Below are positions 1 through 12,025 of a DNA stretch of 12,025 nucleotides, one piece after another. This DNA comes from Chloroflexota bacterium (lineage in GTDB: Bacteria; Chloroflexota; Limnocylindria; Limnocylindrales; CSP1-4). The DNA lies in contig JAJYJR010000113.1 in the NCBI GenBank assembly GCA_021789355.1, positions 1-12,025 on the forward strand, in the 5' to 3' direction. Position numbers and translations under genes: made by a program. The notes under the pieces were generated by a model. The model was given only the letters and a program-made list of their open reading frames with translations, was not told the DNA's origin and made no database searches. Each line of letters starts with the position of its first letter. Position 1 is the first letter of the stretch.

Positions 1-958
1 TCCAGGATACGGCGGGCAGGGTCCCCGCCTGGGCCGCCGCAAAGTACGCCGACAGGTCGCGGATGTCGGCCATCTGGCCATCGGCGTGCACGTCGCCGAA
101 GCCGGGCAGCACGTTCCAGATCTTGGGCACGCCGCCGTTTGCCTTCCCCTGGTAGGCGCCCTGCGGCGCGGCTCCCTGGTCGAGGTACCAGGACCAGCTG
201 ACGTGGTCCCGGGAGAGCAGGTACGTGAGATCGGTCCAGGCGAAGGGGGTGGGGCTGGCATTGCTGCGGTTCGCCGGGTCCACCGCGCTCGTGCAGCTCA
301 TCGGGTCGGCGGCGTTGGCACAGGTCGCCGACCAGGCCGAGACGAGATACAGGTGGGACGGGAAGCTCCAGGAGTGCACCGCCTCGAACATGTGGTCCTG
401 CAGCACGAAGTCTCGGGCATAGGTCCAGTAGTTGGGGATGTCGGAGCCCGTGTGGTAGCCCATGACGTCGGGCGCGGGAAGGTTGGCGCAGGCGGGGTTG
501 GTGGGATTGGCGCAGCCATGCCGGGCGCGCTCGGCCTGCGCGATGAATCCGTCCATCTTGCCGCCGTTCACGTCGGCCACGCTGTTGACGTCGTTGTGCG
601 GGCCGCCCCCGTTGCGATCTGCGTGATCGGGGTAGGGCTTGACGCACTGTCCGCTGGCGGGATCCGGGACGCACACGGTGGGGACCCCGTTCTGCATGGG
701 GATGCCATCGGCGCCCGGGAACGTGCCGAAGTAGCTGTCGAAGGAGCGGTTCTCCTGGAAGATCACGATGACGTGCCTGATCTTGTGGATGCCGCTCGCG
801 GTGCTGCTGTTCGGGCCCGCCGTCGACGTCGCCGTCCCGCTCGGGGCCGTCGGGTGCGCGGTGGTGGAGGTGGTGCCGCACGAGGCGAGGAGCGGCGCGA
901 GGGCGACGGCCAGCGCCGGAAGCGCAAGGTGCCCGGCGAGACCGGCTCGTCCCCTCAT
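1..958 (-). CDS. Secreted phosphoesterase lipoprotein (phospholipase C / acid phosphatase family), C-terminus beyond left edge
   Basis: The gene starts at ATG 958-956 and stays open for 319 codons to the left edge, so the C-terminus is missing. Residues 1-27 form a lipoprotein signal: basic n-region, Ala/Leu-rich core, lipobox LASC with Cys27. A Thr/Ser/Ala-rich linker follows (about 29-56). The mature domain opens with HVIVIFQENRSFDSYFGTFPG-type sequence (about 62-82), the N-terminal hallmark of the phosphoesterase family of phospholipases C and AcpA-type acid phosphatases; Glu69-Asn70 match the metal-binding Glu-Asn pair. A second block, HSWSFPSHLYLVSAWS (195-210), should carry the nucleophilic Ser, probably Ser196 or a neighbour. 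The protein is inferred to be anchored outside the membrane, releasing phosphate or head groups from phosphoesters. The start is supported by the fit of the signal peptide; no clear Shine-Dalgarno sequence is visible. It is transcribed away from the Kai-like operon. The exact substrate cannot be told. Confidence 0.88.
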   Translation of the reverse strand, partial: MRGRAGLAGHLALPALAVALAPLLASCGTTSTTAHPTAPSGTATSTAGPNSSTASGIHKIRHVIVIFQENRSFDSYFGTFPGADGIPMQNGVPTVCVPDPASGQCVKPYPDHADRNGGGPHNDVNSVADVNGGKMDGFIAQAERARHGCANPTNPACANLPAPDVMGYHTGSDIPNYWTYARDFVLQDHMFEAVHSWSFPSHLYLVSAWSATCANAADPMSCTSAVDPANRSNASPTPFAWTDLTYLLSRDHVSWSWYLDQGAAPQGAYQGKANGGVPKIWNVLPGFGDVHADGQMADIRDLSAYFAAAQAGTLPAVSW

Positions 959-998
959 GGCGCCAGTCTGGCCGAACGAGATGAAGACCGCATCAAGA

Positions 999-1018
999 TC
1001 ACAGAATCCGTGTCACAG
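999..1018. repeat. Direct repeat TCACAG, 14 nt apart, in the divergent intergenic region
   Basis: TCACAG occurs at 999-1004 and again at 1013-1018. It lies 40-60 nt upstream of the phosphoesterase start, where a regulator of that gene could bind; on the minus strand it reads CTGTGA. The 14-nt pitch does not match the 11-nt pitch of a classical Pho box, so no regulator is assigned. Chance occurrence is possible. Confidence 0.25.
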
Positions 1019-1159
1019 AGCCCGTGCCGCGATCACCCCGGCGTGCCCGCGCCTGCGGACCGGTATCCCGCTGGCCGCGGATCGACGGCGCCCTGCTGCA
1101 GGCGATCCTCGACGGCGCCCGTCACTCGGGCACCCCGTGAGCTCCAGGCCGTCTGCCGC

Positions 1160-1191
1160 TTGACCGCGACTGGTAAGGTGAGCGGTAAGGT
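1160..1191 (+). promoter_or_regulatory. Candidate promoter/operator of the Kai-like operon
   Basis: TTGACC at 1160-1165 resembles a sigma-70 type -35 box. The octamer GGTAAGGT occurs at 1172-1179 and 1184-1191, a 12-nt direct repeat. Each copy contains TAAGGT, which fits the TAnnnT form of a -10 box, but TTGACC to the second TAAGGT is 20 nt, longer than ideal. An unusually AT-rich stretch follows (1191-1207). The position, about 30-40 nt before the ribosome binding site of the KaiC gene, suits a promoter. Promoter or repressor/activator site is inference only. Confidence 0.35.
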
Positions 1192-1219
1192 AACAAAATC
1201 AATATCCGGGGCCTCTCTC

Positions 1220-1224
1220 AAGGA
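1220..1224 (+). promoter_or_regulatory. Ribosome binding site supporting the GTG 1234 start of the KaiC-like gene
   Basis: AAGGA lies 9 nt before GTG 1234. It is the reason for choosing this start over in-frame ATG 1303 or GTG 1432, neither of which has a comparable site. Confidence 0.45.
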
Positions 1225-1233
1225 TAAGCCGAC

Positions 1234-2847
1234 GTGACGATCGAGAGGGACGACCAGGTTGTCGGGATCGGCCATGCGGCGAACCTGGCAGCGCCACTGG
1301 GCATGGGGACTGCCCCGACCGCGGACCAGGGCGACCGCCCGGTCCCCATTCGGTCCGCGACCCTGAACCGCGCTGGGTGGCAAGGTGACGGCCGCGGCCC
1401 GAGCGTCGGTGGCTTCGCCTGGCCCGGGCGAGTGTCCGGACCCCCGCTGCCCAAGACGCCAACCGGTATCCGGGGCCTCGATGAGATCACCGTCGGTGGC
1501 CTGCCCCGCGGCCGCACCACCCTCGTCTGCGGCACCGCCGGTACGGGCAAGACGCTGCTCGGACTCGAGTTCCTGGTGCGGGGCGCGCTGGAGCACGGCG
1601 AGCCGGGCGTGCTCGTGACCTTCGAGGAGTCCGCGGCAAAGGTTGCCGCCAACGTGGCTTCGCTCGGTTTCGATCTCGAGGAACTCCAGCGTCGCCAGCT
1701 GCTCGTGGTGGATTCCTTCCGGGTGGACCCTTCGGAGATCATCGAGACCGGGGAGTTCGACCTCGAGCCGCTGTTCCTGCTCCTCAACGACGGCATCCGC
1801 CGGATCGGCGCCAGGCGCGTCGTGCTCGACACGATCGAGGTGCTCTTTGGCGCCTTCCACGAGACCGCCATCGTCCGCGCCGAGCTCAGCCGCCTGTTCC
1901 GCTGGCTCGAGGAACAGCAGGTCACCGCGATCGTGACCGGCGAACGGGGCGACAACGCGCTCACCCGCACCGGGATCGAGGAGTACGTGTCGGACTGCGT
2001 GATCTCTCTCGATCACCGAGTGCGCGAGGAGATCTCCACGCGCCGACTGCGCATCGTGAAATACCGCGGCTCGGTGCACGGCTCCAACGAGTACCCCTTC
2101 CTGATCTCCGCCAACGGCATCGTCGTCCTGCCTGTCACCTCGGTGGCCCTCGCCTACGACGCCTCCTCGGAACGCGTCTCCACGGGCGTTCCCGATCTCG
2201 ACCACATGTTGAGCGGCGGCGTGTATCGGGGTTCGACCGTGCTCGTGAGCGGGACGGCCGGCACCGGCAAGACGACCTTGGCCGCACACTTCGTCGACGC
2301 GGCATGCGCGCGCGGCGAACGTGCTCTGGTCGTGCAGTTCGAGGAGTCACCAGCCCAGCTGATCCGCAACATGCGCTCGGTGGGCCTCGACCTCGGGCGC
2401 TGGGTGGAGGCCGGCCTGCTCCACGTCTGGGCGGCACGATCGAGTGCGTACGGCCTCGAAGCCCACCTGACGATCCTCTCGGACCTGCTCGATGAGTTCC
2501 ATCCCGCGGTGGTGGCCCTCGATGGGCTCAGCAGCCTCGGTCACGGTGTGGCGGCGTCGCAGGCGACCTCCATGGTGGTGCGCCAGTTCGACCTGCTGAA
2601 GGCTCGTGGGATCAGCACGGTCGCGACCGCGCTGTCGCACGGCGACGAGACGACCACCCTCGATGTGTCGTCCGCGGTCGATACCTGGCTGTGGCTGCGC
2701 AATGTCGGATCGAACGGCGAGCGGAACCGACTGCTGTTCGTGGTGAAGTCGCGCGGCAGCGCCCACTCGAACGCGGTGCGCGAGTTCGTGCTGACCGACG
2801 CAGGTGTCGCCCTGCTCGACCCGTACTCCGGCCCGAGGGCGCCCTGA
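1234..2847 (+). CDS. kaiC: KaiC-like double-domain RecA ATPase/kinase
   Basis: A 537-residue protein with two tandem KaiC domains. CI spans about 72-300: Walker A GTAGTGKT (100-107), FEE with catalytic Glu pair 131-132, KYRG (276-279) matching the inter-subunit Lys/Arg of KaiC. CII spans about 312-530: Walker A GTAGTGKT (340-347), FEE with Glu370-371, KSRG (505-508). In KaiC, CI hydrolyses ATP to set the tempo and CII autophosphorylates on an adjacent Ser-Thr pair. Here VSSAVDTW (478-485) aligns with that site, giving Ser479-Ser480. The protein stops about 15 residues after the FVLTDAG strand, so the A-loop and C-terminal tail used by KaiA are missing. The soluble protein is expected to form hexamers. 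Residues 1-66 are not recognisable KaiC sequence; a start at GTG 1432 would give the more usual beginning (PLPKTPTGIRGLDEI follows it). It is the first gene of an operon with two kaiB homologues, a kinase and an EAL protein. Oscillator versus hourglass/stress function cannot be decided from sequence. Confidence 0.93.
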   Translation: MTIERDDQVVGIGHAANLAAPLGMGTAPTADQGDRPVPIRSATLNRAGWQGDGRGPSVGGFAWPGRVSGPPLPKTPTGIRGLDEITVGGLPRGRTTLVCGTAGTGKTLLGLEFLVRGALEHGEPGVLVTFEESAAKVAANVASLGFDLEELQRRQLLVVDSFRVDPSEIIETGEFDLEPLFLLLNDGIRRIGARRVVLDTIEVLFGAFHETAIVRAELSRLFRWLEEQQVTAIVTGERGDNALTRTGIEEYVSDCVISLDHRVREEISTRRLRIVKYRGSVHGSNEYPFLISANGIVVLPVTSVALAYDASSERVSTGVPDLDHMLSGGVYRGSTVLVSGTAGTGKTTLAAHFVDAACARGERALVVQFEESPAQLIRNMRSVGLDLGRWVEAGLLHVWAARSSAYGLEAHLTILSDLLDEFHPAVVALDGLSSLGHGVAASQATSMVVRQFDLLKARGISTVATALSHGDETTTLDVSSAVDTWLWLRNVGSNGERNRLLFVVKSRGSAHSNAVREFVLTDAGVALLDPYSGPRAP

Positions 2848-2927
2848 TGGGAACGGCTCGCCTGGCCGAGGACGGCGGCCAGGGCCAGCTCTGGCCCGAT
2901 GCGCCGCCGCGGAGGCCCGAACCGTGA
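2847..2927 (+). CDS. Possible 26-residue coupling ORF between kaiC and kaiB1
   Basis: The ATG at 2847 shares its A with the kaiC stop (TGATG), and the TGA at 2925-2927 overlaps the kaiB1 GTG start (GTGA). The ORF therefore bridges the whole kaiC-kaiB1 gap with a 1-nt and a 4-nt overlap. GAGGG (2835-2839) lies 7 nt before the ATG. The peptide (MGTARLAEDGGQGQLWPD...) has no recognised domain, signal or membrane segment. It could be a short translated leader coupling translation, or a chance frame in GC-rich DNA. Confidence 0.35.
   Translation: MGTARLAEDGGQGQLWPDAPPRRPEP
2911..2915 (+). promoter_or_regulatory. Ribosome binding site fixing the GTG start of kaiB1
   Basis: GGAGG lies 8 nt before GTG 2924, a strong Shine-Dalgarno match. 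It rules in favour of this GTG over longer upstream forms of the frame, which would add non-KaiB residues. Confidence 0.65.
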
Positions 2928-3235
2928 CCGATGAGCCCATCGTCGGCGACGAGACCTGGGACCTTCGTCTGTACGTCACCGGACGATCCCCCAAGTGCCT
3001 GCGCGCGGTGGCGAACCTGCGCCAGGTCTGCGAGGAGCACCTGGCTGGACGCTACCGCATCGAGGTGGTGGATCTGCTCGAGGACCCGCGTCTGGCGGCC
3101 GACGACCAGATCTTCGCGGTGCCCACGCTCGTGCGCCGCTTGCCGCCGCCCATCCGCAAGATCGTGGGCGACCTTTCCGACGAGGATCGGGTGCTCGTGG
3201 GCCTGCAGCTCAGGGCGAGCCGGGGTCCCACGTGA
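2924..3235 (+). CDS. kaiB: KaiB-like protein 1 (canonical type)
   Basis: A 103-residue protein that aligns along nearly its whole length with cyanobacterial KaiB: LRLYVTGRSP (14-23) as the first beta strand and loop, IEVVDLLEDPRLA (46-58), AVPTLVRRLPPPIRKIVGD (65-83), then LSDEDRVLVGLQL. The central PTL motif and the PPPIRKIVGDLSD block are close to KaiB consensus. One difference is Gln in GLQL where KaiB normally has Asp (GLDL), in the region that influences KaiB fold switching. KaiB has a thioredoxin-like fold in its KaiC-bound state and binds the CI ring of KaiC; the same role is inferred here. The gene has a strong ribosome binding site and its stop overlaps the next start by 4 nt (GTGA). 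Confidence 0.93.
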   Translation: MTDEPIVGDETWDLRLYVTGRSPKCLRAVANLRQVCEEHLAGRYRIEVVDLLEDPRLAADDQIFAVPTLVRRLPPPIRKIVGDLSDEDRVLVGLQLRASRGPT

Positions 3236-3552
3236 CCGACTCCGCCGATCCACCCCGCTGGTCGCTCGCCCTGTACGTCAACGGAGCGTCGCCGGCCTCG
3301 GCCGGCGCCATCGAGACGGTCCGTCGACTCTGCGACACCGAGCTCGCGGGGCAGGTGGACCTCGAGGTGATCGACGTGCACCTGCAGCCGGCACTCGTCG
3401 TGCGCGACAACGTCATCGCCACGCCCACGCTGGTGAAGCGGCTGCCGGCGCCGCTGCGGCGGCTTGTGGGCAGCCTCGCTGACGCCCATCGCGTCCGTTT
3501 GGGCCTGGACCTCGACCCCCCTGGGCTCGGGGTCCGGGGTGAGCGGCGTTGA
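3232..3552 (+). CDS. KaiB-like protein 2 (divergent paralogue)
   Basis: A 106-residue protein starting at GTG 3232 inside the stop of kaiB1 (GTGA overlap). It aligns with KaiB1 without gaps from LALYVNGASP (12-21) to LGLDL (90-94); by hand about 38 of 84 positions are identical. ATPTLVKRLPAPLRRLVG (63-80) is a clear KaiB signature, and it keeps the GLDL motif that KaiB1 has lost. It diverges in the first helix (SPASAGAIETVRRL) and has SLADAH where KaiB has DLSD. It ends in a short basic tail (VRGERR). Tandem duplication followed by specialisation is the likely origin. It may bind KaiC in a different state, or bind the kinase encoded next, since the cyanobacterial kinase SasA senses KaiC through a KaiB-like domain that the kinase here lacks. 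That role is inference. Confidence 0.88.
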   Translation: MTDSADPPRWSLALYVNGASPASAGAIETVRRLCDTELAGQVDLEVIDVHLQPALVVRDNVIATPTLVKRLPAPLRRLVGSLADAHRVRLGLDLDPPGLGVRGERR

Positions 3553-3582
3553 CCCACGCAGGTAGCGGGGGGGGTTGGTGAG

Positions 3583-6420
3583 GTGCGGCCGGCGGCCGGG
3601 CGGCGGTCGCGTGCGGAACTGGGCCGGCCGGCACCCGGCGACGAGTTCGTGTCGGCCGCCGAGTTCGCCGTACTTCGTGCCCAGCTGCAGGAAGCGCTCG
3701 AGACGATCGACGCGATCCGTGCGGGCGACGTCGACGCGCTTGTCATCGGCCCTCCCGGCGAGGAGCGCCTCTACACCCTGACCAGCGCCGACCGCACCTA
3801 CCGGCTCCTCGTGGACGGCATGAACGAGGGCGCCGCGACCGTCTCCTCGAGCGGTGTGATCCTGTATGGCAATGCCCGCCTCGGGGCCATGGTCGGCCGC
3901 GCGCCGGCCATGCTTGCCGGCACGGATGCCCTGGAGTTGACCAGGGGTGCCGATCGCGCGACGCTCGCGCGGCTCCTCGAGAGCGGGGGCGACGAGCCCG
4001 CCACCGCCGACCTCGAGCTCGCGACGGCGGACGGAGGCCGCCTTCCGGTCCTCGTGTCGGTGAGCTGCGTCGATCTGGACGGGGCCCGTGTTCGGGTCGT
4101 GGTCGCCACCGACATCTCCGTCGTGCGGGAGGCGGAGCGCGAGGTGATGGACGCACATCAGGGCCTCCAGAGGAGCGAAGCGCTCCTGCGTGAGACGCAG
4201 GCCGTCGCCCATGTTGGCGGCTGGGAGCTGGACGTCCTGGATGACAGGCTGCGCTGGACGGACGAGACCTACGTCATCCACGAGACCTCGCCGGCGGAAT
4301 ACAGCCCCACCGTCCCCAGCGCAATCGCGTTCTATGCACCGGAATCGGTCCCCCGCATCAGCGCCGCGGTGCGGGATGCCGTCGAGCACGGCACCCCCTA
4401 CGACCTCGAGCTCGAGCTGATCACCGCCAAGGGCCGTCGGATCTGGGTGCGTGCCACGTGCAGGGCGACGGTGGATGCCCAGGGACGGACGACCAGGCTC
4501 GCGGGTGCGTTCCAGGACATCAGCGAGCGCCGGGCCGCGGATGCCGCGCTCCGCGAGAGCGAGGAGCGGTTCCGCTCGGTCGTCGAGGGCTCTCCCGACG
4601 CCATGTTCCTCACCGGCCTGGACGACCTGCGGATCCGCGCCGTCAACCCGGCCGCCTGTGCTCTCCTCGGGTGCAGCGCCGACGAGCTGATCGGGAAGCA
4701 CATCTCCGAACTGGTGCCGCCCGCCGACGAGGCGACCCAGGCCCGGCGAGCGGATGCCCTGAGGGCCGGACACCTCGTGCGCAGTGAGGTACGCCTGCTG
4801 CGCCCGCACGCCCCCCCGTTCGACGCCGAGATCGCCCACGTCGTGCTCCCCGACGGACGCATCCTGTCCACGGTTCGCGACATCTCCGATCGGAAGCGAG
4901 CCGAGGCCGAGCGGACGCGCCTGCTCGCAGCCATCGAGCACGCCCCCGACCCGCTCCTGCTCGTGGATCCCGACGGGCGCATCGTCTACGCCAACCGCGC
5001 CCTCGAGGTTGTGTCGGGCTACGAGCGCGCGGAGCTCGCGGGCCGTCTCACCCAGATATTCGGCGGTCCGGGGCACACGAGCCTCCCGGTGGAGGTCTGG
5101 CAGGGAATCCTGGCGGGCCGGCCCTGGGCCGGCGAGATCCCGGCCCTGCGGGCCGACGGGAAGACCTACACCCTGGAATGGACGATCGCCGAGGTGCACG
5201 ACGACGCCGGTGCGCCCCTCGGGTTCATCGCGAGCGCCCGCGACCGCTCCGTTGAGAAGGCCCTCCAGGCGCAGCTCGCGCAGTCCCAGCGGCTCGAGGC
5301 GGTGGGCGAACTGGCGGGCGGCATCGCGCACGACTTCAACAACCTGCTCACCGCGATCCGCGGCTATGCCCAACTGATCCAGCGCGGCCTGGGGGCCGAC
5401 GATCCCGCCCGCGCCGACGCCGAGCAGGTCATCGGCGCTGCCGATCGGGCCGCTGCGCTCACCCGCGGCCTGCTCGCCTTCAGCCGGCGCCAGGTCCTCG
5501 CACCGCGCATCGTCGACCCGGCCGAGGTGGTCGACGGCATCGCCCCGCTCCTCCGCCAGCTCCTCGGTGCGCACATCGAGCTCAGCACCGCCGTCACGCC
5601 CGGTGGCGGGCACGTCAGCGTCGACCCCTCCCAGCTCGAGCAGGTGATCGTCAACCTCACGGTGAACGCCCGCGATGCGATGCCCGAGGGCGGGCAGCTC
5701 ATGGTCGAGCTCACGGACGTCGAACTCGACGCCGCGTACGTCGCGACCCATCCCGAGGCGACGGTGGGCCCCCACGTGCAGCTCGCCGTCTCCGACACGG
5801 GGATCGGCATGGACTCTGCGACCCAGGCGCGCATCTTCGAGCCGTTCTTCACCACCAAGGAGACAGGCCGGGGGACGGGCATGGGCCTGGCCACGGTGTA
5901 CGGCATCGTCAAGCAGTCGGGCGGCTCGATCTACGTGTACAGCGAGCCCGGGCACGGCACGACGTTCCGGGTGTACTTCCCGCGCGTCGCAGGCACGGCC
6001 GCCCCGGCCGTGGCGGAGCCCATCGAGCCCCGTCCGTCGGCGGCCGGGTCCGAGACGATGCTGCTCGTGGAGGACGATGCGGCGGTCCGCGGCTTCGCGC
6101 GCCGCACGCTCGAGGCACAGGGGTACGAGGTGCTCGAGGCGGGGAGCGGGGCCGAGGCGCTCGCGCTCGCGGACGCCCATGCGGGAATGATCGATCTGCT
6201 CGTCACCGACGTGGTCATGCCGGGCCTGCAGGGCCACCGGCTCGCCGAGCAGCTGAGGGCCGCCCGACCAGGTCTCCGTGTCCTCTACGTCTCGGGCTTC
6301 ACCGAGAACTCGGTGATTCACCGTGGCGTGGCCGCCGAGGGGATCGCCTTCCTCGCCAAGCCGTTCAGCGCCGAGGCACTGGGGCGAGCGGTGCGCGCCG
6401 CCCTTGATCGTCCGGCATGA
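3583..6420 (+). CDS. Soluble hybrid histidine kinase (4x PAS, HisKA, HATPase, REC)
   Basis: A 945-residue protein with no membrane segment or signal peptide, so a cytosolic sensor. Order: N-terminal helix plus LYTLTSADRTYRLLVDGM segment (about 24-80) leading into PAS1 (to about 180); PAS2 of the PAS_3 type (about 205-315, GGWELD to GAFQDISERR); PAS3 (about 326-438); PAS4 (about 445-558); HisKA with GGIAHDFNNLLTAIRGYAQL, phospho-acceptor His583; HATPase with N-box NLTVNARDAM (691-700), DTGIGMD (738-744) and GRGTGMGLA (762-770); C-terminal REC (about 825-940) with acidic residues 830-832, phospho-acceptor Asp876 (VTDVVMP) and Lys926. All catalytic residues are present. It starts 30 nt after kaiB2; GTG 3583 is the most upstream start, preceded only by a G-run as a poor ribosome site, so GTG 3649 (residue 23) is possible. 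Its stop overlaps the next start (ATGA). It is the inferred reader of KaiC/KaiB state or of redox/ligand signals, passing phosphate to the downstream REC-EAL protein. Confidence 0.93.
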   Translation: MRPAAGRRSRAELGRPAPGDEFVSAAEFAVLRAQLQEALETIDAIRAGDVDALVIGPPGEERLYTLTSADRTYRLLVDGMNEGAATVSSSGVILYGNARLGAMVGRAPAMLAGTDALELTRGADRATLARLLESGGDEPATADLELATADGGRLPVLVSVSCVDLDGARVRVVVATDISVVREAEREVMDAHQGLQRSEALLRETQAVAHVGGWELDVLDDRLRWTDETYVIHETSPAEYSPTVPSAIAFYAPESVPRISAAVRDAVEHGTPYDLELELITAKGRRIWVRATCRATVDAQGRTTRLAGAFQDISERRAADAALRESEERFRSVVEGSPDAMFLTGLDDLRIRAVNPAACALLGCSADELIGKHISELVPPADEATQARRADALRAGHLVRSEVRLLRPHAPPFDAEIAHVVLPDGRILSTVRDISDRKRAEAERTRLLAAIEHAPDPLLLVDPDGRIVYANRALEVVSGYERAELAGRLTQIFGGPGHTSLPVEVWQGILAGRPWAGEIPALRADGKTYTLEWTIAEVHDDAGAPLGFIASARDRSVEKALQAQLAQSQRLEAVGELAGGIAHDFNNLLTAIRGYAQLIQRGLGADDPARADAEQVIGAADRAAALTRGLLAFSRRQVLAPRIVDPAEVVDGIAPLLRQLLGAHIELSTAVTPGGGHVSVDPSQLEQVIVNLTVNARDAMPEGGQLMVELTDVELDAAYVATHPEATVGPHVQLAVSDTGIGMDSATQARIFEPFFTTKETGRGTGMGLATVYGIVKQSGGSIYVYSEPGHGTTFRVYFPRVAGTAAPAVAEPIEPRPSAAGSETMLLVEDDAAVRGFARRTLEAQGYEVLEAGSGAEALALADAHAGMIDLLVTDVVMPGLQGHRLAEQLRAARPGLRVLYVSGFTENSVIHRGVAAEGIAFLAKPFSAEALGRAVRAALDRPA

Positions 6421-8096
6421 CCGCCGACACGACCGCCGACCGCGGGGACCCGTCGGCAGGGCTGGCGGCGCCCATCCTCATCGTTGATGACGAGCCGGCC
6501 GTGCGGGCCCTGTTCGCGCGCGTCCTGCAGGAGGCGGGCTATGCCGCCCTCGAGGCAGCCGACGGGATCGAGGCCCTCGAACTGCTGGAGCGCCACGAGG
6601 TCGCGCTGGTGCTGCTCGACAGCACGATGCCCCGCCTCGACGGCGCCGGGGTGATCCGCGCCGTGCGTGCCCGCCCGGCGACACGCACCCTGCCCGTCAT
6701 CCTGGTCACCGCCAAGGCGAACCTCGAGGATCGGGTGGCGGGCCTCGAGGCGGGGGCCGACGACTACCTTGCCAAGCCGGTCGTGCTTGATGAACTGATT
6801 GCGCGCATCGGTGCCCAGATCCGCCACCACGCCGCCTGGACCGAAGCGGTCGCGCGGGAAGCGGCGGAACGACGCTCCATGACCGCCGCGCTGCGTCGCG
6901 TGCGGACCGACGACGTCCCCGAACACATGGCGCGTGCGTTGGTGGCGGAGCTGCGCCCTGCCCTCGGGCTGGAGGGGCTCGCCCTCGCCAGCTATGCGCC
7001 CGACGGGGCGCTGATCCCGATGGGGGTGGATGGGAGCTGGCCGGGGCGCTTCCGTCCCGGCGACCCTGTGGAGGCGGGCATCGCGCGTCGACTGCGCGAT
7101 CGCGTGGCCCAGGGCCCATGGGTGCTCGACCAACCTGCGCGCAGCGGCGAGGCGGCGCCGGGGCTTGGGACCGTGGCCGCCCTGCCCCTCGAGGGACCTG
7201 ACGGCCCGTTCGGGCTGCTGGCGCTCCGCGTGGCATCCGCTCCCGACGGAGTCCGCGCGTTCGCCCGCCGCATGCCCCTGTTCCTGGAGCTCGCCGATCT
7301 GGTGGCCACGATGTTGCTCCCGGGCCTCGCGGCCGACGCAGCGCATCGTCATGCGCGTGGCACGCTGGAGGGCATCATCGCCGCGCGCGCCTTCGTCCCG
7401 TACGTCCAGCCGGTGGTCTCGCTCGCCGATCGCACCGTCGTCGGGTACGAGGCGCTCACCCGCTTCTCGGACGGGACTGCACCAGACGCCCGCTTCGCCG
7501 ACGCCGAGCGTCTCGGCCTCTCCGACGAGCTCGAGCGCGCCACGCTGGCGGCCGCCGCCGCTGCCGCGGATGGCCTCCCCGATGGCACCTTCCTCGCGCT
7601 CAACGTCTCCCCCTCGTTCCTGCTGGGCGCGAACCTCTCCGAGCTCCTCCCCGGCGTCGGGCGTGACATCGTGCTCGAGATCACCGAGCATGCCCCGATC
7701 CACGACTACGGCGCGGTGCGCGCGGCGCTCGAACGGCTCGGCCCGCGCGTGCGGGTGGCGGTCGACGACGCGGGATCTGGATATGCCAGCCTGCGCCACA
7801 TCCTGGCCCTGCGACCCGCCTTCGTGAAGCTCGACATGGGTTGGGTCCGCGACATCGACGCCGACCCGGCGCGCCAGGCTCTCGTGGCGGGCCTCGTGCA
7901 CTTCGCCGCCGAGGTCGGCTGCGCGCTCATCGGTGAGGGCATCGAGACCGAGGCCGAACGGGCGGTCCTGCGCCGCCTCGGGGTGACACTCGGCCAGGGC
8001 TACCTGTTTGGACGGCCGGCATCCCTGGCAGCCGCGGCCGCCGAGCCGGCGATGCCACGCTCCGGCGTCATGGCCCCCGGCTCGCCCATCGGCTGA
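6417..8096 (+). CDS. REC-EAL response regulator, c-di-GMP phosphodiesterase
   Basis: A 559-residue protein. REC spans about 18-135: Asp24-Asp25, phospho-acceptor Asp68 (LLDSTMP), Lys120. A middle region (about 155-305) has a GAF-like pattern but is only weakly recognisable. EAL spans about 315-540 and keeps its catalytic signatures: YEALTRF (Glu345), LNVSP (Asn396), EITE (Glu421), DDAGSGYASL (Asp450-Asp451), Lys471 in VKLDM, EGIETEAE (Glu507) and GQGYLFG (Gln527). An active phosphodiesterase that cleaves c-di-GMP to pGpG is expected. There is no GGDEF domain, so it should only degrade the messenger, as in REC-EAL regulators such as RocR. The ATG overlaps the kinase stop by 4 nt, implying translational coupling and a cognate kinase-regulator pair. 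It is the likely output of the Kai-like operon. Confidence 0.92.
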   Translation: MTADTTADRGDPSAGLAAPILIVDDEPAVRALFARVLQEAGYAALEAADGIEALELLERHEVALVLLDSTMPRLDGAGVIRAVRARPATRTLPVILVTAKANLEDRVAGLEAGADDYLAKPVVLDELIARIGAQIRHHAAWTEAVAREAAERRSMTAALRRVRTDDVPEHMARALVAELRPALGLEGLALASYAPDGALIPMGVDGSWPGRFRPGDPVEAGIARRLRDRVAQGPWVLDQPARSGEAAPGLGTVAALPLEGPDGPFGLLALRVASAPDGVRAFARRMPLFLELADLVATMLLPGLAADAAHRHARGTLEGIIAARAFVPYVQPVVSLADRTVVGYEALTRFSDGTAPDARFADAERLGLSDELERATLAAAAAAADGLPDGTFLALNVSPSFLLGANLSELLPGVGRDIVLEITEHAPIHDYGAVRAALERLGPRVRVAVDDAGSGYASLRHILALRPAFVKLDMGWVRDIDADPARQALVAGLVHFAAEVGCALIGEGIETEAERAVLRRLGVTLGQGYLFGRPASLAAAAAEPAMPRSGVMAPGSPIG

Positions 8097-8142
8097 TCGA
8101 GGATCTGCTCCGCCGGCACGATCGCGGTCCCGGCTGATGTCC

Positions 8143-8148
8143 TACGCT
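8143..8148 (+). promoter_or_regulatory. Candidate -10 box for the SQR-like gene
   Basis: TACGCT fits the TAnnnT pattern and lies 25 nt before the ATG, just upstream of a strong ribosome site. No convincing -35 box is seen, and the 76-nt gap from the EAL gene could equally be read through. Confidence 0.22.
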
Positions 8149-8158
8149 CGGAGAAACC

Positions 8159-8166
8159 GGAGGAGG
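8159..8166 (+). promoter_or_regulatory. Strong ribosome binding site of the SQR-like gene
   Basis: GGAGGAGG lies 6 nt before ATG 8173 and decides this start over the longer open frame, which runs back into the EAL gene. Confidence 0.7.
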
Positions 8167-8172
8167 CGTCGC

Positions 8173-9393
8173 ATGGCTGCGCGTACGGTGCTCGTTCTCG
8201 GAGGTGGCGTGGGTGGTCTCGTGGCCGTCCGGGAACTGCGCCACAAGCTCGAGCCGCACGATCGGGTGGTGCTCGTCGAGCGGGAGCCCGACTACCTGTT
8301 CCAGCCGTCGCTGCTCTGGCTCATGGTCGGGCGGCGGCGGCGGGCCGACCTGTCGCGGCCCATGTCCGCGCTCCTCGCGCCGGGGGTCGAGCTCGTGCGG
8401 GCCGAGGTGCGGGGCATCGATCCGGCCGGCTGTTCGGTCGGGACGAGCGCCGGGCGACTGACCGGCGACGGGATGCTCGTGGCCCTCGGCGCAACACTCG
8501 CCCCCGAGGCGAGCCCGGGCTTCGCGGAGGCCGCCCACAACATCTTCACGCTCGACGGCGCGCTCGGCTGCGCCCGGGCGCTGGAGGGGTTCCGGGGCGG
8601 ACGGCTCGTGGTGGCGGTTGCCGGCCTCCCCTACAAGTGCCCCGCGGCCCCCTACGAGGCCGCGCTCCTGCTCGACGACGAGCTGCGCCGCCGCGGGGTG
8701 CGCGGGCCGGCCGAGATCGAGCTCTACACGCCCGAGCCCCAGCCGATGCCGGTGGCGGGCCCGGCCATGGGCGAGGCGGTGAGCCGCATGCTGGAGGCCC
8801 GCTCGATCCGGTTCCATCCGCGATCTCCGATCGAGCGGTTCGAGCCCGGGACCCGCGAGATCGTGCTGGCCGACGGGGCGAGGGTGGGCTATGACCTGCT
8901 CGTGGGTGTGCCGCCCCACCGGGCCCCGTCCGCGCTGCGCGACTCGGGGCTCGTCAACGACGCGGGCTGGGTCATGGTGGACCCGCGCACCCTCCGGACG
9001 AGCTTCGAGCGCGTGTACGCGGTGGGAGATGCGACCTCGATCACCCTCGCCAACGGCAAGCCGCTCCCGAAGGCGGGCGTGTTCGCGCACGCGGAGGCGG
9101 TCGCGGCGGTCGGGGGACTCGCCGCGGCGCTGGCCGGTGCGACGAGCGGGCAGGCGTTCGACGGCCACGGCTACTGCTGGCTCGAGACCGGGGAGGGGCG
9201 CGCGGCGTTCGCCGACGGCGACTTCTATGCGGAGCCCGATCCGGTCGTGGCTCTGCGCCGGCCGGGCCGCGTCTGGCATGCCGGCAAGGTCCTCTTCGAG
9301 CGCTACTGGCTCTCGAGCGGCCTCGCGCACCGGCTCTCCGCCGCCGCCCTCAGCGGCGCCGGTGGACTGGTGGGCGTCCGCGCAGAGCTGTAG
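8173..9393 (+). CDS. sqr: FAD-dependent oxidoreductase of the sulfide:quinone oxidoreductase family
   Basis: A 406-residue flavoprotein, a normal length for the family. Residues 5-38 are the N-terminal Rossmann FAD-binding region (GGGVGGLVAVREL, with Glu36 ending strand 2). YKCPAAPYEAALLLDDEL (154-171) carries Cys156. VYAVGDATSI (281-290) is the second FAD motif, and KPLPKAGVFAHAEA (296-309) is typical of SQR-like proteins. GYCWLETGEGRAAF (333-346) carries Cys335. Cys156 and Cys335 match the redox-active Cys pair of SQR, which oxidises sulfide to sulfur/polysulfide and reduces membrane quinone. The C-terminal part (KVLFERYWLSSGLAHRL, 372-388) could be an amphipathic membrane-binding helix. 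Other members of the superfamily (type II NADH dehydrogenase, flavocytochrome c sulfide dehydrogenase) remain possible, but the Cys pair favours SQR. It precedes a SHOCT protein and a cupredoxin. Confidence 0.8.
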   Translation: MAARTVLVLGGGVGGLVAVRELRHKLEPHDRVVLVEREPDYLFQPSLLWLMVGRRRRADLSRPMSALLAPGVELVRAEVRGIDPAGCSVGTSAGRLTGDGMLVALGATLAPEASPGFAEAAHNIFTLDGALGCARALEGFRGGRLVVAVAGLPYKCPAAPYEAALLLDDELRRRGVRGPAEIELYTPEPQPMPVAGPAMGEAVSRMLEARSIRFHPRSPIERFEPGTREIVLADGARVGYDLLVGVPPHRAPSALRDSGLVNDAGWVMVDPRTLRTSFERVYAVGDATSITLANGKPLPKAGVFAHAEAVAAVGGLAAALAGATSGQAFDGHGYCWLETGEGRAAFADGDFYAEPDPVVALRRPGRVWHAGKVLFERYWLSSGLAHRLSAAALSGAGGLVGVRAEL

Positions 9394-9416
9394 GCGGGTT
9401 GTCGGCGGCACGCGGC

Positions 9417-9433
9417 CTTGATCCGATCTTGAT
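9417..9433 (+). promoter_or_regulatory. Direct repeat CTTGAT with 11-nt pitch, candidate response-regulator site
   Basis: CTTGAT occurs at 9417-9422 and 9428-9433, exactly 11 nt apart; a related CTTGAG is at 9451-9456. One-turn direct repeats are the usual binding format of OmpR/PhoB-type winged-helix regulators. It lies about 105-120 nt upstream of the SHOCT gene start. The assignment to a regulator is inference. Confidence 0.35.
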
Positions 9434-9441
9434 GGTCAGGC

Positions 9442-9466
9442 GCACGGCGCCTTGAGCTTGCCGTGC
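9442..9466. promoter_or_regulatory. Perfect 7-bp inverted repeat, operator or weak terminator
   Basis: GCACGGC (9442-9448) and GCCGTGC (9460-9466) are a perfect inverted repeat around an 11-nt centre. There is no T-run after it, which argues against a standard intrinsic terminator of the SQR gene. A dyad of this size could be an operator for a dimeric regulator of the SHOCT-cupredoxin genes. Confidence 0.3.
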
Positions 9467-9523
9467 AACCATCGTCGAAGCGAGCGGGAATCCGCCGCGG
9501 GGCCGGTATCGGATCGTGGCGCA

Positions 9524-9529
9524 GAGGAG
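9524..9529 (+). promoter_or_regulatory. Ribosome binding site of the SHOCT gene
   Basis: GAGGAG lies 7 nt before ATG 9537. It favours this start over the in-frame GTG at 9516, which the site itself would overlap. Confidence 0.6.
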
Positions 9530-9536
9530 TCTTGAG

Positions 9537-9779
9537 ATGATGTGGGGCGCAGGTTTCGGGATGGGCCTGGTCGGTTGGCTGTGGATGCTCGGCGGGCTGA
9601 TCCTGGTGGCCGCTCTCGTCGCCCTCGTCGTGCGCGCCCTGAGCGGCCCGACGTATCCCGAGGAACGCGGGTCCGCGAGAATGAGCGCGCTCGACATCCT
9701 GCGGGAGCGCTACGCCCGTGGCGAGATCACGGAGGCCGAGCTCGAGCAGGCGAAGAAGGCCCTGGGGTATCGGTCATGA
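9537..9779 (+). CDS. Small membrane protein with C-terminal SHOCT domain
   Basis: An 80-residue protein. Residues 1-10 are Gly/Met-rich with a Trp (MMWGAGFGMG), followed by one transmembrane helix (about 11-35). A short charged linker follows, then a C-terminal SHOCT motif: ALDILRERYARGEITEAELEQ (about 51-71). SHOCT domains are short helical modules often found at protein ends with a proposed oligomerisation role; their biochemical function is not settled. The gene is the first after a repeat-rich intergenic region and its stop overlaps the start of the cupredoxin gene by 4 nt (ATGA), so the two are probably co-translated. An accessory role in the membrane alongside the copper protein is inferred. 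Confidence 0.82.
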   Translation: MMWGAGFGMGLVGWLWMLGGLILVAALVALVVRALSGPTYPEERGSARMSALDILRERYARGEITEAELEQAKKALGYRS

Positions 9780-10330
9780 GCCACCGGATGCTGGGCCGGC
9801 TGGGCGCCGCACTGGTGGGGCTGGGCCTCATCCTCCTGGTCGCGGGCACGGTCCTCGGAGGGCTCGGTCCTGCCGGCGGGTTCTCCTCGCCGGGTGCGGG
9901 CGCGAACCGGGGCCCGTTCGGGGCCATGGGGCCGGGCATGATGGGCGGCCTGTGGGCCGGCAACACCGGCAGCGCACCCGGGCCTGGTGCCGCTGGCTTC
10001 GTCGCCGGCACGCCCGCCGCGCCGCGGGTGGTCCACGTCCTCGCCGGCCCCGGGTACACGTTCAGCCCCGCCGACGTCCGGATCGTCGCCGGCGAGACGA
10101 TCACGTTCGAGGTCACGACCGTGGGTCCGATGGTCCACGAGTTCAAGGTGGGGCCGGCGGCCGAGGTGGCGGCCGACGCGGCTGCGGCGCCCGAGATCGC
10201 CGACATCGGCATGATGGAGACGAAGTCGCTCACATACACGTTCACTGGCTCGGGGCCGTTCGCGTTCGCCTGCCATGAGCCGGGCCACTACGAGGCGGGC
10301 ATGCGCGGGACGATCACGATCGTCTTGTAG
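9776..10330 (+). CDS. Membrane-anchored cupredoxin (type I copper protein)
   Basis: A 184-residue protein. Residues 11-30 form an uncleaved signal anchor or signal peptide. A Gly/Met-rich linker (about 35-62, with GAMGPGMMGG) follows, then a cupredoxin domain (about 85-184): GYTFSPADVRIVAGETITFEV is the usual second/third strand, His121 lies in MVHEFK, and FACHEPGHYEAGM supplies Cys166, His171 and Met176 (Cys-x4-His-x4-Met). All four type I copper ligands are therefore present. The protein is expected outside the cytoplasmic membrane, either as a single-electron carrier (plastocyanin, sulfocyanin or rusticyanin-like) or in copper handling. The start overlaps the SHOCT stop. The Met-rich linker may bind Cu(I). 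Confidence 0.88.
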   Translation: MSHRMLGRLGAALVGLGLILLVAGTVLGGLGPAGGFSSPGAGANRGPFGAMGPGMMGGLWAGNTGSAPGPGAAGFVAGTPAAPRVVHVLAGPGYTFSPADVRIVAGETITFEVTTVGPMVHEFKVGPAAEVAADAAAAPEIADIGMMETKSLTYTFTGSGPFAFACHEPGHYEAGMRGTITIVL

Positions 10331-10348
10331 GCGCCGCGGGCGATCGCC

Positions 10349-11053
10349 GTGCCCGAGGCCTCGCCGGTTCGGATCGGGCCGTCGAGCTATGCCCGGTGGC
10401 GGGCGACGACCCTCGGCGCCCTCACCGACGCGCTCGAGGAGCGGCTCATCACCGAGCTCCTCGGCGAGGTCGACGGTCGTCGGGTGCTCGACGCGGCCTG
10501 CGGCGACGGCGCGCTCGCGCGGACGCTTGCCCGCCATGGAGCGAGCGTGGTCGGGCTCGACGCAGACCCGGCGATGGTCGAGGCGGCCCGACAGGCCGCC
10601 GCCGATGCCGGGCTCGGGGCGACGTTCGTCGCGGGGGAGCTCGCGCGATTGCCGTTTCCGGACACCTCGTTCGACGTCGTGGTCGCGGTCACCGTGCTCT
10701 GCTTCGTCCCCGGCGCGACGGCTTCGATCCGGGAGCTCGTCCGCGTCCTGCGGCCCGGCGGCCGGCTCGTGCTGGGAGAGCTCGGCCGCTGGAGCACCTG
10801 GGCCGCGCTCCGTCGCGTTCGGGGCTGGCGTGGGTCGGCCACCTGGCGGGCGGCCCACTTCCGGACCGCCACGGAGTTGCGCGGGATGCTCGAAGCTGCC
10901 GGCCTCACGGTCGAGACCGGCCGCGGGGCGGTCGACTACCCGCCGCTCGGGCTCGCCGCGCGTGTGCTCGCACCCATCGACGCCTCAATCGGGCGGCGGA
11001 CGACACTCGGGGCCGCGTTCCTCGCGCTTGCTGCGACAAGACCTCCGATCTGA
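10349..11053 (+). CDS. Class I SAM-dependent methyltransferase
   Basis: A 234-residue cytosolic protein with the Methyltransf_11/UbiE-like pattern: motif I VLDAACGDGAL (46-56), acidic end of strand 2 in VVGLDADPAM (Asp71), LPFPDTSFDVVVAVTVLCF (101-119) as motif II region, and RVLRPGGRLVLGEL (132-145). The substrate cannot be told; the family includes quinone, small-molecule and lipid methyltransferases. A quinone-linked role would suit the SQR neighbour, but that is only inference. It starts at GTG 10349, 18 nt after the cupredoxin stop, without a clear ribosome site, so the start is uncertain. The end converges on the nucleoside phosphorylase gene with 5 nt between stop codons. Confidence 0.85.
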   Translation: MPEASPVRIGPSSYARWRATTLGALTDALEERLITELLGEVDGRRVLDAACGDGALARTLARHGASVVGLDADPAMVEAARQAAADAGLGATFVAGELARLPFPDTSFDVVVAVTVLCFVPGATASIRELVRVLRPGGRLVLGELGRWSTWAALRRVRGWRGSATWRAAHFRTATELRGMLEAAGLTVETGRGAVDYPPLGLAARVLAPIDASIGRRTTLGAAFLALAATRPPI

Positions 11054-11060
11054 GGTCGTT
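11038..11060. terminator. Hairpin spanning both convergent stop codons, possible bidirectional terminator
   Basis: GACCTC (11040-11045) and GAGGTC (11052-11057) form a perfect 6-bp stem with a 6-nt loop, extendable by two A-T pairs across a bulged G. The stop codon of the methyltransferase and part of that of the phosphorylase lie inside it. U-tracts on either side are weak, so efficiency is uncertain. Confidence 0.4.
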
Positions 11061-11841
11061 ACTCCGTCGCGAAGGCGCGCACCAGCGCATCGATGACCGC
11101 GAGAGCATCGTGCGCCCCGTTCGCCCGACCCTTCTCGAAGTCGCCCTCGCGCTGGGCCAGCGCGTTCGTCACGTGGGCAACGCAGATGACGGCACGCTGC
11201 CGCGCCTGCGCGAACGCATAGAGGGCGGCGGCCTCCATCTCGACCGCGACGACACCCTCGCCGCGGCGGGCGGCGATGAGCGACGCCGTTTCGCGGAATG
11301 GCGCGTCGGTCGTCCAGCTCGAGCCACACGCGATGGCAACACCGGCCGTCGCCAACATGTTCTGCGCTCGGGCGAGGAGGTTCGGATCGGCCGCCGCGAA
11401 GCGACCAGGCGGCAGATAGTGATGGCTCGTGCCCTCGTCGCGGAGGGCGCGCTCGATCACGACGAAGTACGGCGGCGTGCCGATGGGTGCGATCTGGCCC
11501 GCCGAGGTGATGCTCACGAGCAGCGCGCAGCCGGAGGCGAACAGCTCCTCCGCGACGAGCACCGCGAACGGGGCGCCGACCGCGCCGCCGACGATCCCGA
11601 AGCGCGTGCCGTCGTCGACGACGAAGAGCTCGGTGTGATAGCAGGCCCAGGCCGGATCGCGCGTGGCCCGGCCGGAGGCGACGAGCTCGCGGACGATGTC
11701 GCCGTCGGGATCGAGGACGCAGACGGCCGGGACATCGCCGCTCGGCAACCCCTTCTGGCGGCGCGCCTCGCGGAGCAGGTTCTCCGGGGTGAACGCCGAC
11801 GGCTCCGCGTAGTCGCGGTCGTCGCCGAGCGGGATCGTCAT
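11059..11841 (-). CDS. Nucleoside phosphorylase (PNP/UDP phosphorylase superfamily)
   Basis: A 260-residue protein, a normal length for the superfamily. FGIVGGAVGAPFA (81-93) is a glycine-rich phosphate-binding region, LLVSITSAGQI (107-117) a core strand and turn, SSWTTDAPFRET (174-185) a substrate-binding segment, and VVAVEMEAAALYAFA (197-211) the signature in which Met202-Glu203 contact the nucleoside ribose. It cleaves a nucleoside with phosphate to give the free base and (deoxy)ribose-1-phosphate; purine, uridine or methylthioadenosine specificity cannot be read with confidence. ATG 11841 overlaps the TGA of the upstream cysteine desulfurase (ATGA), so the pair is probably co-translated; no separate ribosome site is clear. 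Confidence 0.88.
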   Translation of the reverse strand: MTIPLGDDRDYAEPSAFTPENLLREARRQKGLPSGDVPAVCVLDPDGDIVRELVASGRATRDPAWACYHTELFVVDDGTRFGIVGGAVGAPFAVLVAEELFASGCALLVSITSAGQIAPIGTPPYFVVIERALRDEGTSHHYLPPGRFAAADPNLLARAQNMLATAGVAIACGSSWTTDAPFRETASLIAARRGEGVVAVEMEAAALYAFAQARQRAVICVAHVTNALAQREGDFEKGRANGAHDALAVIDALVRAFATE

Positions 11842-12025
11842 GCCGGGGTGAGCGGGGCGGGAAGCGGTCCGACTGCCTCGAGCGCGCGCTCCATCTGCGA
11901 GGCGACGGTCCGGATCTCGGCCTCCGTGGTCGGCCGGCCGAGGCTGAAACGGATCGCGCCCATCCCCACCTCGGGCGCCACGCCCATGGCGGCGAGCACG
12001 GGCGAAAGCTCCACGCGCCCGGCGT
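11838..12025 (-). CDS. Cysteine desulfurase, C-terminal fragment (5' end beyond right edge)
   Basis: Sixty-one codons at the right edge end at TGA 11840-11838. The peptide begins AGRVELSPVLAAMGV and continues with MGAIRFSLGRPTTEAEI (21-37), the conserved C-terminal end of NifS/IscS-type cysteine desulfurases. These PLP enzymes take sulfur from cysteine, giving alanine and an enzyme persulfide for Fe-S clusters, thiolated tRNA or other uses. The family pattern Cys-His-Ala-Gly places the catalytic Cys two codons beyond the edge; the two bases left before the first full codon (AC) fit a His codon CAC. The rest of the gene and its subtype are outside the window. Confidence 0.85.
   Translation of the reverse strand, partial: AGRVELSPVLAAMGVAPEVGMGAIRFSLGRPTTEAEIRTVASQMERALEAVGPLPAPLTPA

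Follow-up and report, generated by a model that had tools for sequence, protein, structure and literature searches.

The stretch of DNA analysed here, 12,025 nucleotides (nt) from Chloroflexota bacterium GCA_021789355.1 (contig JAJYJR010000113.1, positions 1-12,025; hereafter the window), carries at positions 1234-8096 a single row of five plus-strand genes, which Pfam matches identify as encoding KaiC, two KaiBs, a hybrid histidine kinase, and a protein with a receiver (REC) and an EAL phosphodiesterase domain. On balance, we favour the view that this row is a KaiA-less, KaiC2-type KaiC/KaiB-I/KaiB-II module, foreign to its class, which was plugged into a native cyclic di-GMP (c-di-GMP) relay by a fusion within the kinase. 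As far as sequence comparison can establish it, this view is carried by the gene content, the mosaic composition of the kinase, the native pairing of kinase and REC-EAL protein, the rarity of kai genes in the class, the co-occurrence of a kinase motif with KaiB, and the separation of the two KaiBs. The names KaiB-I and KaiB-II refer to the position in the row and do not follow the KaiB1/KaiB2 naming of Synechocystis.

A sequence-only reading of the window had recognised KaiC, two KaiB homologues, a PAS-rich hybrid kinase and a REC-EAL protein on one strand, and had described them as a KaiA-less Kai-type operon that includes a c-di-GMP phosphodiesterase. The gene row is confirmed, all five genes being present. 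A search for KaiA (PF07688) detected it in the control, S. elongatus, and had no match in the two closest genomes compared, which are 91% and 76% complete. The same reading had seen in the row a conserved five-gene circuit, which does not hold, as among the loci examined only that of the congener has the whole row. This congener is genome G066 ('Chloroflexi bacterium isolate DBS1-3.bin120'), and its locus L021 lies on contig JAJYGH010000020.1 (L019 is the same sequence as L021). The DNA identity between the two rows is 91% across window positions 1324-8040, and the five proteins are 88-94% identical.

A mosaic kinase and its native partner

The hybrid histidine kinase (3583-6420, + strand) comprises, according to Pfam, four PAS domains, HisKA, HATPase_c and Response_reg, preceded by a motif that we refer to as the kai-output motif. 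Sequence comparison divides it into two parts. Residues ~25-190 resemble kai-linked output proteins of other phyla (up to 59%); this part contains the motif (residues 27-78, positions 3661-3816, + strand, located with a profile built on the fetched loci) and the kai-type PAS1 (about residues 73-190, positions 3799-4152, + strand). The second part, residues 195-945 (positions 4165-6417, + strand), is of native type: after the congener, the best matches are native EAL-paired kinases, with 56-63% for residues 195-325 (three kinases), and 66-74% and 65-76% for residues 561-805 and 820-945, respectively (six or seven kinases), residues 326-560 (PAS3-4) being clearly assigned to neither the kai-linked nor the native source. 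When 60-residue segments are compared, the better source switches between residues 151-210 and 181-240.

A database search with residues 22-190 returned 33 proteins, namely P0001 (identical there), P0002 (87%) and 31 others; a search with only residues 22-82 returned two. The 11 nearest of these 31 (P0123-P0133, 48-59%) have a kinase core with 23-29% identity to that of the window, except for P0127, which has no core, and the best core among the 31 is that of P0138 (49%). Four native kinases have a core that is 68-74% identical to the window's and an N-terminus that is at most 24% identical. In a tree of 60 kinase cores, the window and L021 group with six native EAL-paired kinases (support 96/95). 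An approximately unbiased (AU) test of the window joined to the kai-linked kinases versus the natives gave p 2e-6; we give it little weight because the kai-linked kinase cores do not themselves form one clade, the supported branches requiring at least 4 changes.

Judging from these comparisons, the kinase is most probably a fusion of a kai-type N-terminus with a native EAL-paired kinase that provided PAS2, the kinase core and the receiver. With such a mosaic, the tie between the kai and the c-di-GMP halves of the row appears better supported than gene order had made it. The hallmark of SasA, a KaiB-like domain fused to the kinase, is absent from the window kinase and was found fused only in L065 and L069.

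The REC-EAL phosphodiesterase (6417-8096, + strand; Response_reg 1.7e-28, EAL 1.4e-40) is likewise of native type and consists of a REC (residues 20-131), a GAF-like middle region with a faint likeness to GAF_3 (E 0.052) and an EAL domain (residues 321-534). The conserved catalytic residues reported by the sequence-only reading are borne out in that the EAL motif set is kept and aligns with PDB phosphodiesterases, the aligned residues being those we take to be catalytic. No Hpt domain is present among the Pfam matches of the row. A REC-EAL match at E<=1e-70 was observed in 61/177 genomes of the class, and eight genomes in which KaiB does not exceed the cut-off contain relatives of near full length (55-69%). 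Twelve kai-less loci were fetched, the 11 best REC-EAL matches outside G066 and one match of G067. In 11 of these (L167-L175, L177, L178), a hybrid kinase is located immediately upstream of the REC-EAL gene, in L170 only as a fragment; L176 has no kinase, and in L173 the EAL gene is in two frames. Since the REC-EAL protein is class-wide and the kinase stands upstream of it in almost all these kai-less loci, hybrid kinase and REC-EAL protein are a native pair of this Chloroflexota family, which normally occurs without kai. G066 has 11 GGDEF matches, an indication that c-di-GMP is synthesised.

The kai-output motif

The kai-type N-terminus starts with a motif of ~50 residues, with the consensus ExxxLRxRLxExExTLxAIRxGEVDAxVVxxxxGxxVxTLxGADxxYRxxVE. 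Pfam gives no match ahead of kinase residue 73, even at E 1. In the fetched loci, the motif is present in 64/79 PAS-bearing frames located <=700 nt from a same-strand kai gene versus 4/48 others, a count for which the profile was built on these same loci and which includes the window, L021 and near copies such as L040/L043. Among 400 Chloroflexota genomes, 22 match the motif. All 21 strong matches (E<=8e-15) are found among the 39 KaiB-positive genomes, and the single weak match (7e-5, 25 residues) is in a genome that is not KaiB-positive, which gives a Fisher value of 1.2e-24 for the co-occurrence of motif and KaiB, or 2.6e-23 if the weak match is counted. The motif adjoins kaiB in 20 of the 23 Chloroflexota matches, the exceptions being L207, L222 and L223. 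In the phylum of Methylobacterium, 9/319 genomes match (seed included), all nine beside kai genes, and in the phylum of Nocardioides, 6/316 genomes have a KaiC at E<=1e-140 (seed included), all six with the motif in the adjoining output protein. Conversely, 18 of the 39 KaiB-positive Chloroflexota genomes have no motif. Six fetched motif-less loci (L186-L188, L193-L195) exhibit another KaiC type, 36-39% identical to that of the window, and L190 is also motif-less although its KaiC is 54% identical.

The motif marks kai-adjacent outputs whatever the catalytic domain, as the proteins that bear it finish with a histidine or hybrid kinase, with GGDEF-EAL (L039, L073, L074, L077, L243, L244) or with EAL alone. 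P0127 contains in one chain the motif, a PAS1 (54% to the window), further PAS domains and an EAL domain (55% to that of the window). This chain, which links the kai-type N-terminus straight to an EAL domain of the window's kind, also supports a tie between the two halves of the row.

Other arrangements were also observed. L207 (genome G507) encodes a motif-PAS-kinase and L223 (G468) a motif-PAS-GGDEF protein, neither of them directly next to kaiB, in KaiB-positive genomes. In a betaproteobacterial metagenome-assembled genome, a stop-to-stop frame (L071:8660-11773) combines motif, PAS, GGDEF and KaiC, i.e., a diguanylate cyclase joined to KaiC. L065:11755-13350 and L069:11191-13215 are KaiB-motif-PAS-histidine kinase frames outside cyanobacteria.

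Two classes of KaiB

The genes for KaiB-I (2924-3235, + strand; PF07689 3.7e-24) and KaiB-II (3232-3552, + strand; PF07689 1.4e-21) had been read as a duplicated kaiB. A simple duplication is ruled out by the tree, in which KaiBs from many phyla separate according to whether they come first or second in their row. In rows with two KaiBs, the first and second copies are on opposite sides without exception (46 versus 48), the 48 comprising 45 second copies and three KaiBs in longer frames, which are the KaiB-motif-PAS-kinase frames of L065 and L069 and a PAS-PAS-KaiB frame that adjoins a motif protein in L185. The KaiBs fused to a motif-PAS-kinase are thus of the second type. In a FastTree tree of 143 rows, every first copy belongs to a single set that is free of second copies and has a support of 99; this tree omits only L019, while the other trees omit L043 (near copy of L040) and L019. 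The KaiB-II of the window is divergent and its position in the tree is unsure, and it has the second-copy letter in most diagnostic columns. From the trees, the two KaiBs are probably old paralogs.

AlphaFold2 models were obtained with alignments of 40 rows per KaiB class. KaiB-I is modelled with a helix-helix-strand end (predicted local distance difference test, pLDDT, 65); the 17 best PDB matches of this model are free KaiB crystals. The model of KaiB-II has a thioredoxin-like end (pLDDT 74) and is closest in the PDB to fold-switched KaiB, L. pneumophila KaiB (4kun) and the SasA N-domain (1t4y, 6x61). KaiB-I is therewith predicted to be a ground-state KaiB and KaiB-II to be thioredoxin/SasA-like. 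Within the window, only KaiB-II matches the NCBIfam SasA model (1.8e-6). L182 (G397) has three consecutive kaiB genes (9526-10672) between kaiC and a motif-bearing kinase.

KaiC and its apparently shortened tail

The kaiC gene (1234-2847, + strand; PF06745 2.4e-105) encodes a double-domain KaiC with a two-serine (SS) phosphosite at residues 479-480 (positions 2668-2673), and its best PDB matches are the Rhodobacter (Cereibacter) sphaeroides KaiC structures 8db3/8dba. The window thus has the double-domain KaiC, the kaiB and the two phosphosite serines of a KaiC2-type module. Another hallmark of this type, a coiled-coil extension of about 50 residues at the C-terminus, is present in L021 and absent in the window, where KaiC ends after residue 537. 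The extension of R. sphaeroides KaiC forms a 12-helix bundle that joins two hexamers and allows KaiA-free regulation (PMC10076222).

The KaiC of L021 is a single open frame, ~95 residues longer, with a coiled-coil-like tail that starts with VGPEGALTGSARLAQEE, and its stop overlaps kaiB by GTGA. Relative to L021, the window is short of one base near 2826 and of about 195 more near 2872-2876, so that either its KaiC is truncated or the assembly is wrong. The junctions TGATG, GTGA, GTGA, 30 nt and ATGA, listed by the sequence-only reading as links between the genes, are all present in the sequence, but the first two, TGATG (2845-2849) and the first GTGA (2924-2927), flank a 26-codon frame (2847-2927, + strand). 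A separate small gene between kaiC and kaiB is ruled out, as alignment to the L021 KaiC identifies this frame as a relic of the C-terminal tail. In 79/95 aligned KaiC frames (a count in which L019 and L021 are identical and L191 reads through Ns), 66-112 residues are present beyond the common end point; other short-tailed examples are L065, L079 and L190. P0034, a protein of 695 residues, has Pfam KaiB and KaiC in a single chain.

Distribution, selection and location

KaiB passes the Pfam cut-off in 1/177 genomes of the class and in 39/400 of the phylum, and the kai module is foreign-looking in this Chloroflexota class. KaiC-KaiB-KaiB-kinase rows are widespread. After the congener, the other 119 of the 120 listed KaiC matches (8000 candidates scored) are 68-75% identical to the window, and the six among them that have an organism name are Actinomycetota; the six actinomycetal loci that were reached have a KaiC with 52-60% identity. 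The circuit had been said to be refuted if relatives carried kaiBC without the kinase or EAL gene nearby. This is the case for the EAL half, because relatives have KaiC-KaiB(-KaiB) with other outputs and the kinase/REC-EAL pair is located elsewhere without kai.

Between the window and the congener, the ratio of nonsynonymous to synonymous substitution rates (dN/dS) is 0.21 for KaiC, 0.17 for KaiB-I, 0.13 for KaiB-II, 0.39-0.42 for three segments of the kinase and 0.28 for REC-EAL. The genes of the row are real and under purifying selection. Most of the downstream flank of the window is located on a different contig of G066, where its longest piece is 92% identical; either the row or what surrounds it has thus moved since the congeners split. 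In G067, which has no KaiB over the cut-off, the upstream neighbour of the window adjoins an unrelated frame. An empty site of the row was not found in G001, whose contig starts inside the EAL gene (window position 8003), or in G066, whose flank match ends inside a gene. The neighbours of the row have no evident tie to it: a phosphoesterase (PF04185) upstream on the other strand (2-958) and, downstream (8173-11053), a Pyr_redox_2 flavoprotein, a SHOCT protein, a cupredoxin-like protein and a methyltransferase, all assigned by Pfam.

Proposed working and alternatives

In the working that we propose, KaiC would autophosphorylate without KaiA, to an extent set by ATP/ADP. KaiB-I, as the putative fold-switching KaiB, would bind KaiC and bring about its reset, while KaiB-II, predicted to be thioredoxin-like as is the sensor domain of SasA, would read KaiC and dock on the N-terminal motif of the kinase. 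Through the fusion of the kai-type N-terminus (motif and PAS1) with the native kinase (PAS2, kinase core and REC), the kinase could then alter the phosphorylation of the REC in the REC-EAL protein, which would set c-di-GMP hydrolysis and make the level of this messenger fall or rise. We infer each of these binding and phosphotransfer steps, as well as the timekeeping. More tentatively, and with a little less than even confidence, we suggest that KaiB-II and the ~50-residue motif together form a plug, general and portable across bacteria, through which KaiA-less Kai modules are read out. As a split SasA, it would allow one timer to be swapped among kinases, diguanylate cyclases and phosphodiesterases; the window would then be one such swap, in which a single kinase fusion placed an imported timer on a c-di-GMP relay that is native.

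For the way in which the signal leaves non-cyanobacterial KaiBC, the motif offers, together with the second class of KaiB and the fusions that occur in nature, a concrete candidate that can be tested at the bench. In the natural swap of the window, no more than the motif and PAS1 of the kinase are of kai type, which narrows down where the coupling should be located. c-di-GMP is a messenger for attachment and motility, and, if our reading is true, it is a direct Kai output in this lineage.

Several observations weigh against this reading. The branch dividing KaiB-I from KaiB-II has a support of 38 in one tree, and the AlphaFold2 models of both KaiBs are of modest confidence (pLDDT 65 and 74). 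The NCBIfam SasA model matches 33/40 first and 39/40 second copies, so likeness to SasA in sequence hardly divides the two classes and the score is a weak separator. Single-KaiB rows also bear the motif (e.g., L015 and L016), and KaiB-II is therefore not always needed. The KaiC of this copy is without the A-loop region and the coiled-coil tail, and its phosphorylation state may for that reason be altered. The kai donor was not found among the sequences searched. Finally, GGDEF/EAL genes are not enriched near kai (11/56 loci downstream versus 8/52 upstream, p 0.37; L019, L021, L043 and the window left out, and loci too short on one side not counted for that side), and only the motif-bearing c-di-GMP enzymes point to a link between kai and c-di-GMP.

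With the same wiring, the row might be an energy gauge rather than a clock, in which KaiC would signal ATP/ADP or redox to the kinase and c-di-GMP would track nutrients. This fits the data almost as well, since no KaiA was found in the two nearest, incomplete genomes, the host is not known as phototrophic, and the KaiBC of R. sphaeroides is an hourglass that responds to ATP/ADP (PMC10076222; PMC11372060). Nevertheless, the window keeps two parts that the hourglass relies on, KaiB-I and the two-serine site, and we regard the gauge as somewhat unlikely. It is also rather unlikely that KaiB-II is a second KaiB of the ordinary fold-switching kind, present for dosage or fine tuning, with the motif acting in the kinase as a dimerisation or signal helix and not in docking: the two tree sides by position, the different predicted folds of KaiB-I and KaiB-II and the second-type KaiBs in motif-PAS-kinase fusions all speak against it, even if both KaiBs fit KaiB models far better than the SasA model and motif-bearing rows with a single KaiB exist. 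Simple neighbours without coupling, with the kinase and REC-EAL protein obeying their own PAS signals, kai acting elsewhere and the shared transcription unit being an accident of acquisition, would agree with the kinase/REC-EAL pairs of relatives that exist without kai and with the non-significant c-di-GMP neighbourhood enrichment. That the kinase itself has a kai-type N-terminus, the motif of which is tied to kaiB in three phyla, makes this distinctly improbable.

Two further explanations concern the history of this copy. The frameshift and deletion in the KaiC tail could mean that the Kai half is being lost here and that the row is retained for the kinase and REC-EAL protein. However, KaiC, KaiB-I and KaiB-II show the lowest dN/dS of the row, a ratio that spans all the time since the congener split, L065, L079 and L190 are also tail-less, and the assembly may be at fault, which leaves such a decay unlikely. 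The splice might also be older, the mosaic kinase and REC-EAL protein having arrived together with kai from an unsampled relative within the class, as could be expected from the different surroundings of the row in the two congeners. Against this, the two congeners differ as much in the flank as in the row (92 and 91%), and the kinase core and REC-EAL protein are nearest to those of their own family; an import of the whole row is accordingly given low probability.

Comparison with known systems

In the open-licence full-text literature, as far as its excerpts go, we found neither the motif nor a spliced kai/EAL kinase described, nor two KaiB classes in such rows. The general link between kai and c-di-GMP is not new, because De Luca et al. 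(2011) described, outside cyanobacteria, a histidine kinase or a GGDEF/EAL protein directly downstream from kaiC or kaiB in almost all kaiC-kaiB clusters (PMC3164672). The neighbourhood in the window is of the same kind, with the difference that the c-di-GMP enzyme is a separate REC-EAL protein behind a hybrid kinase; two KaiB classes, a shared motif and a spliced kinase do not appear in the section of that paper on kaiC-kaiB clusters. The same authors proposed RtaNt, an N-terminal KaiC-interacting module, for kinases in the kaiB-less group (PMC3164672). According to Schmelling et al. (2017), non-cyanobacterial SasA homologs are without the KaiB-like domain, from which another output path was inferred (PMC5520375); L065 and L069, with their KaiB-motif-PAS-kinase frames, depart from this rule.

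The KaiBC hourglass of R. sphaeroides, of the KaiC2 type, has in common with the window a two-serine KaiC and, as far as the two incomplete genomes nearest to the window show, the lack of a KaiA (PMC10076222). The best PDB match of the window's KaiB-I is 8fwj, and in the R. sphaeroides locus L016 a motif-bearing kinase adjoins kai, as in the window. There, a single KaiB and an HWE kinase are present, whereas in the window two KaiBs are combined with a mosaic hybrid kinase and a REC-EAL protein, and the KaiC tail is missing. The native pairs of L167-L175, L177 and L178 share with the window the kinase core, the REC and the REC-EAL protein, but they have no kai and a different kinase N-terminus. 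In S. elongatus, artificially changed c-di-GMP alters the clock (PMC13001216); there c-di-GMP acts on the clock, whereas in the window Kai would act on c-di-GMP, so that the same two systems would be connected in the other direction. In the SasA-RpaA system, a thioredoxin KaiB-like domain reads KaiC and drives a histidine kinase, which by analogy is the role assumed here for KaiB-II. In SasA, this domain is inside the kinase and the output is a transcription factor, whereas in the window KaiB-II is a separate protein and the output would be an EAL enzyme.

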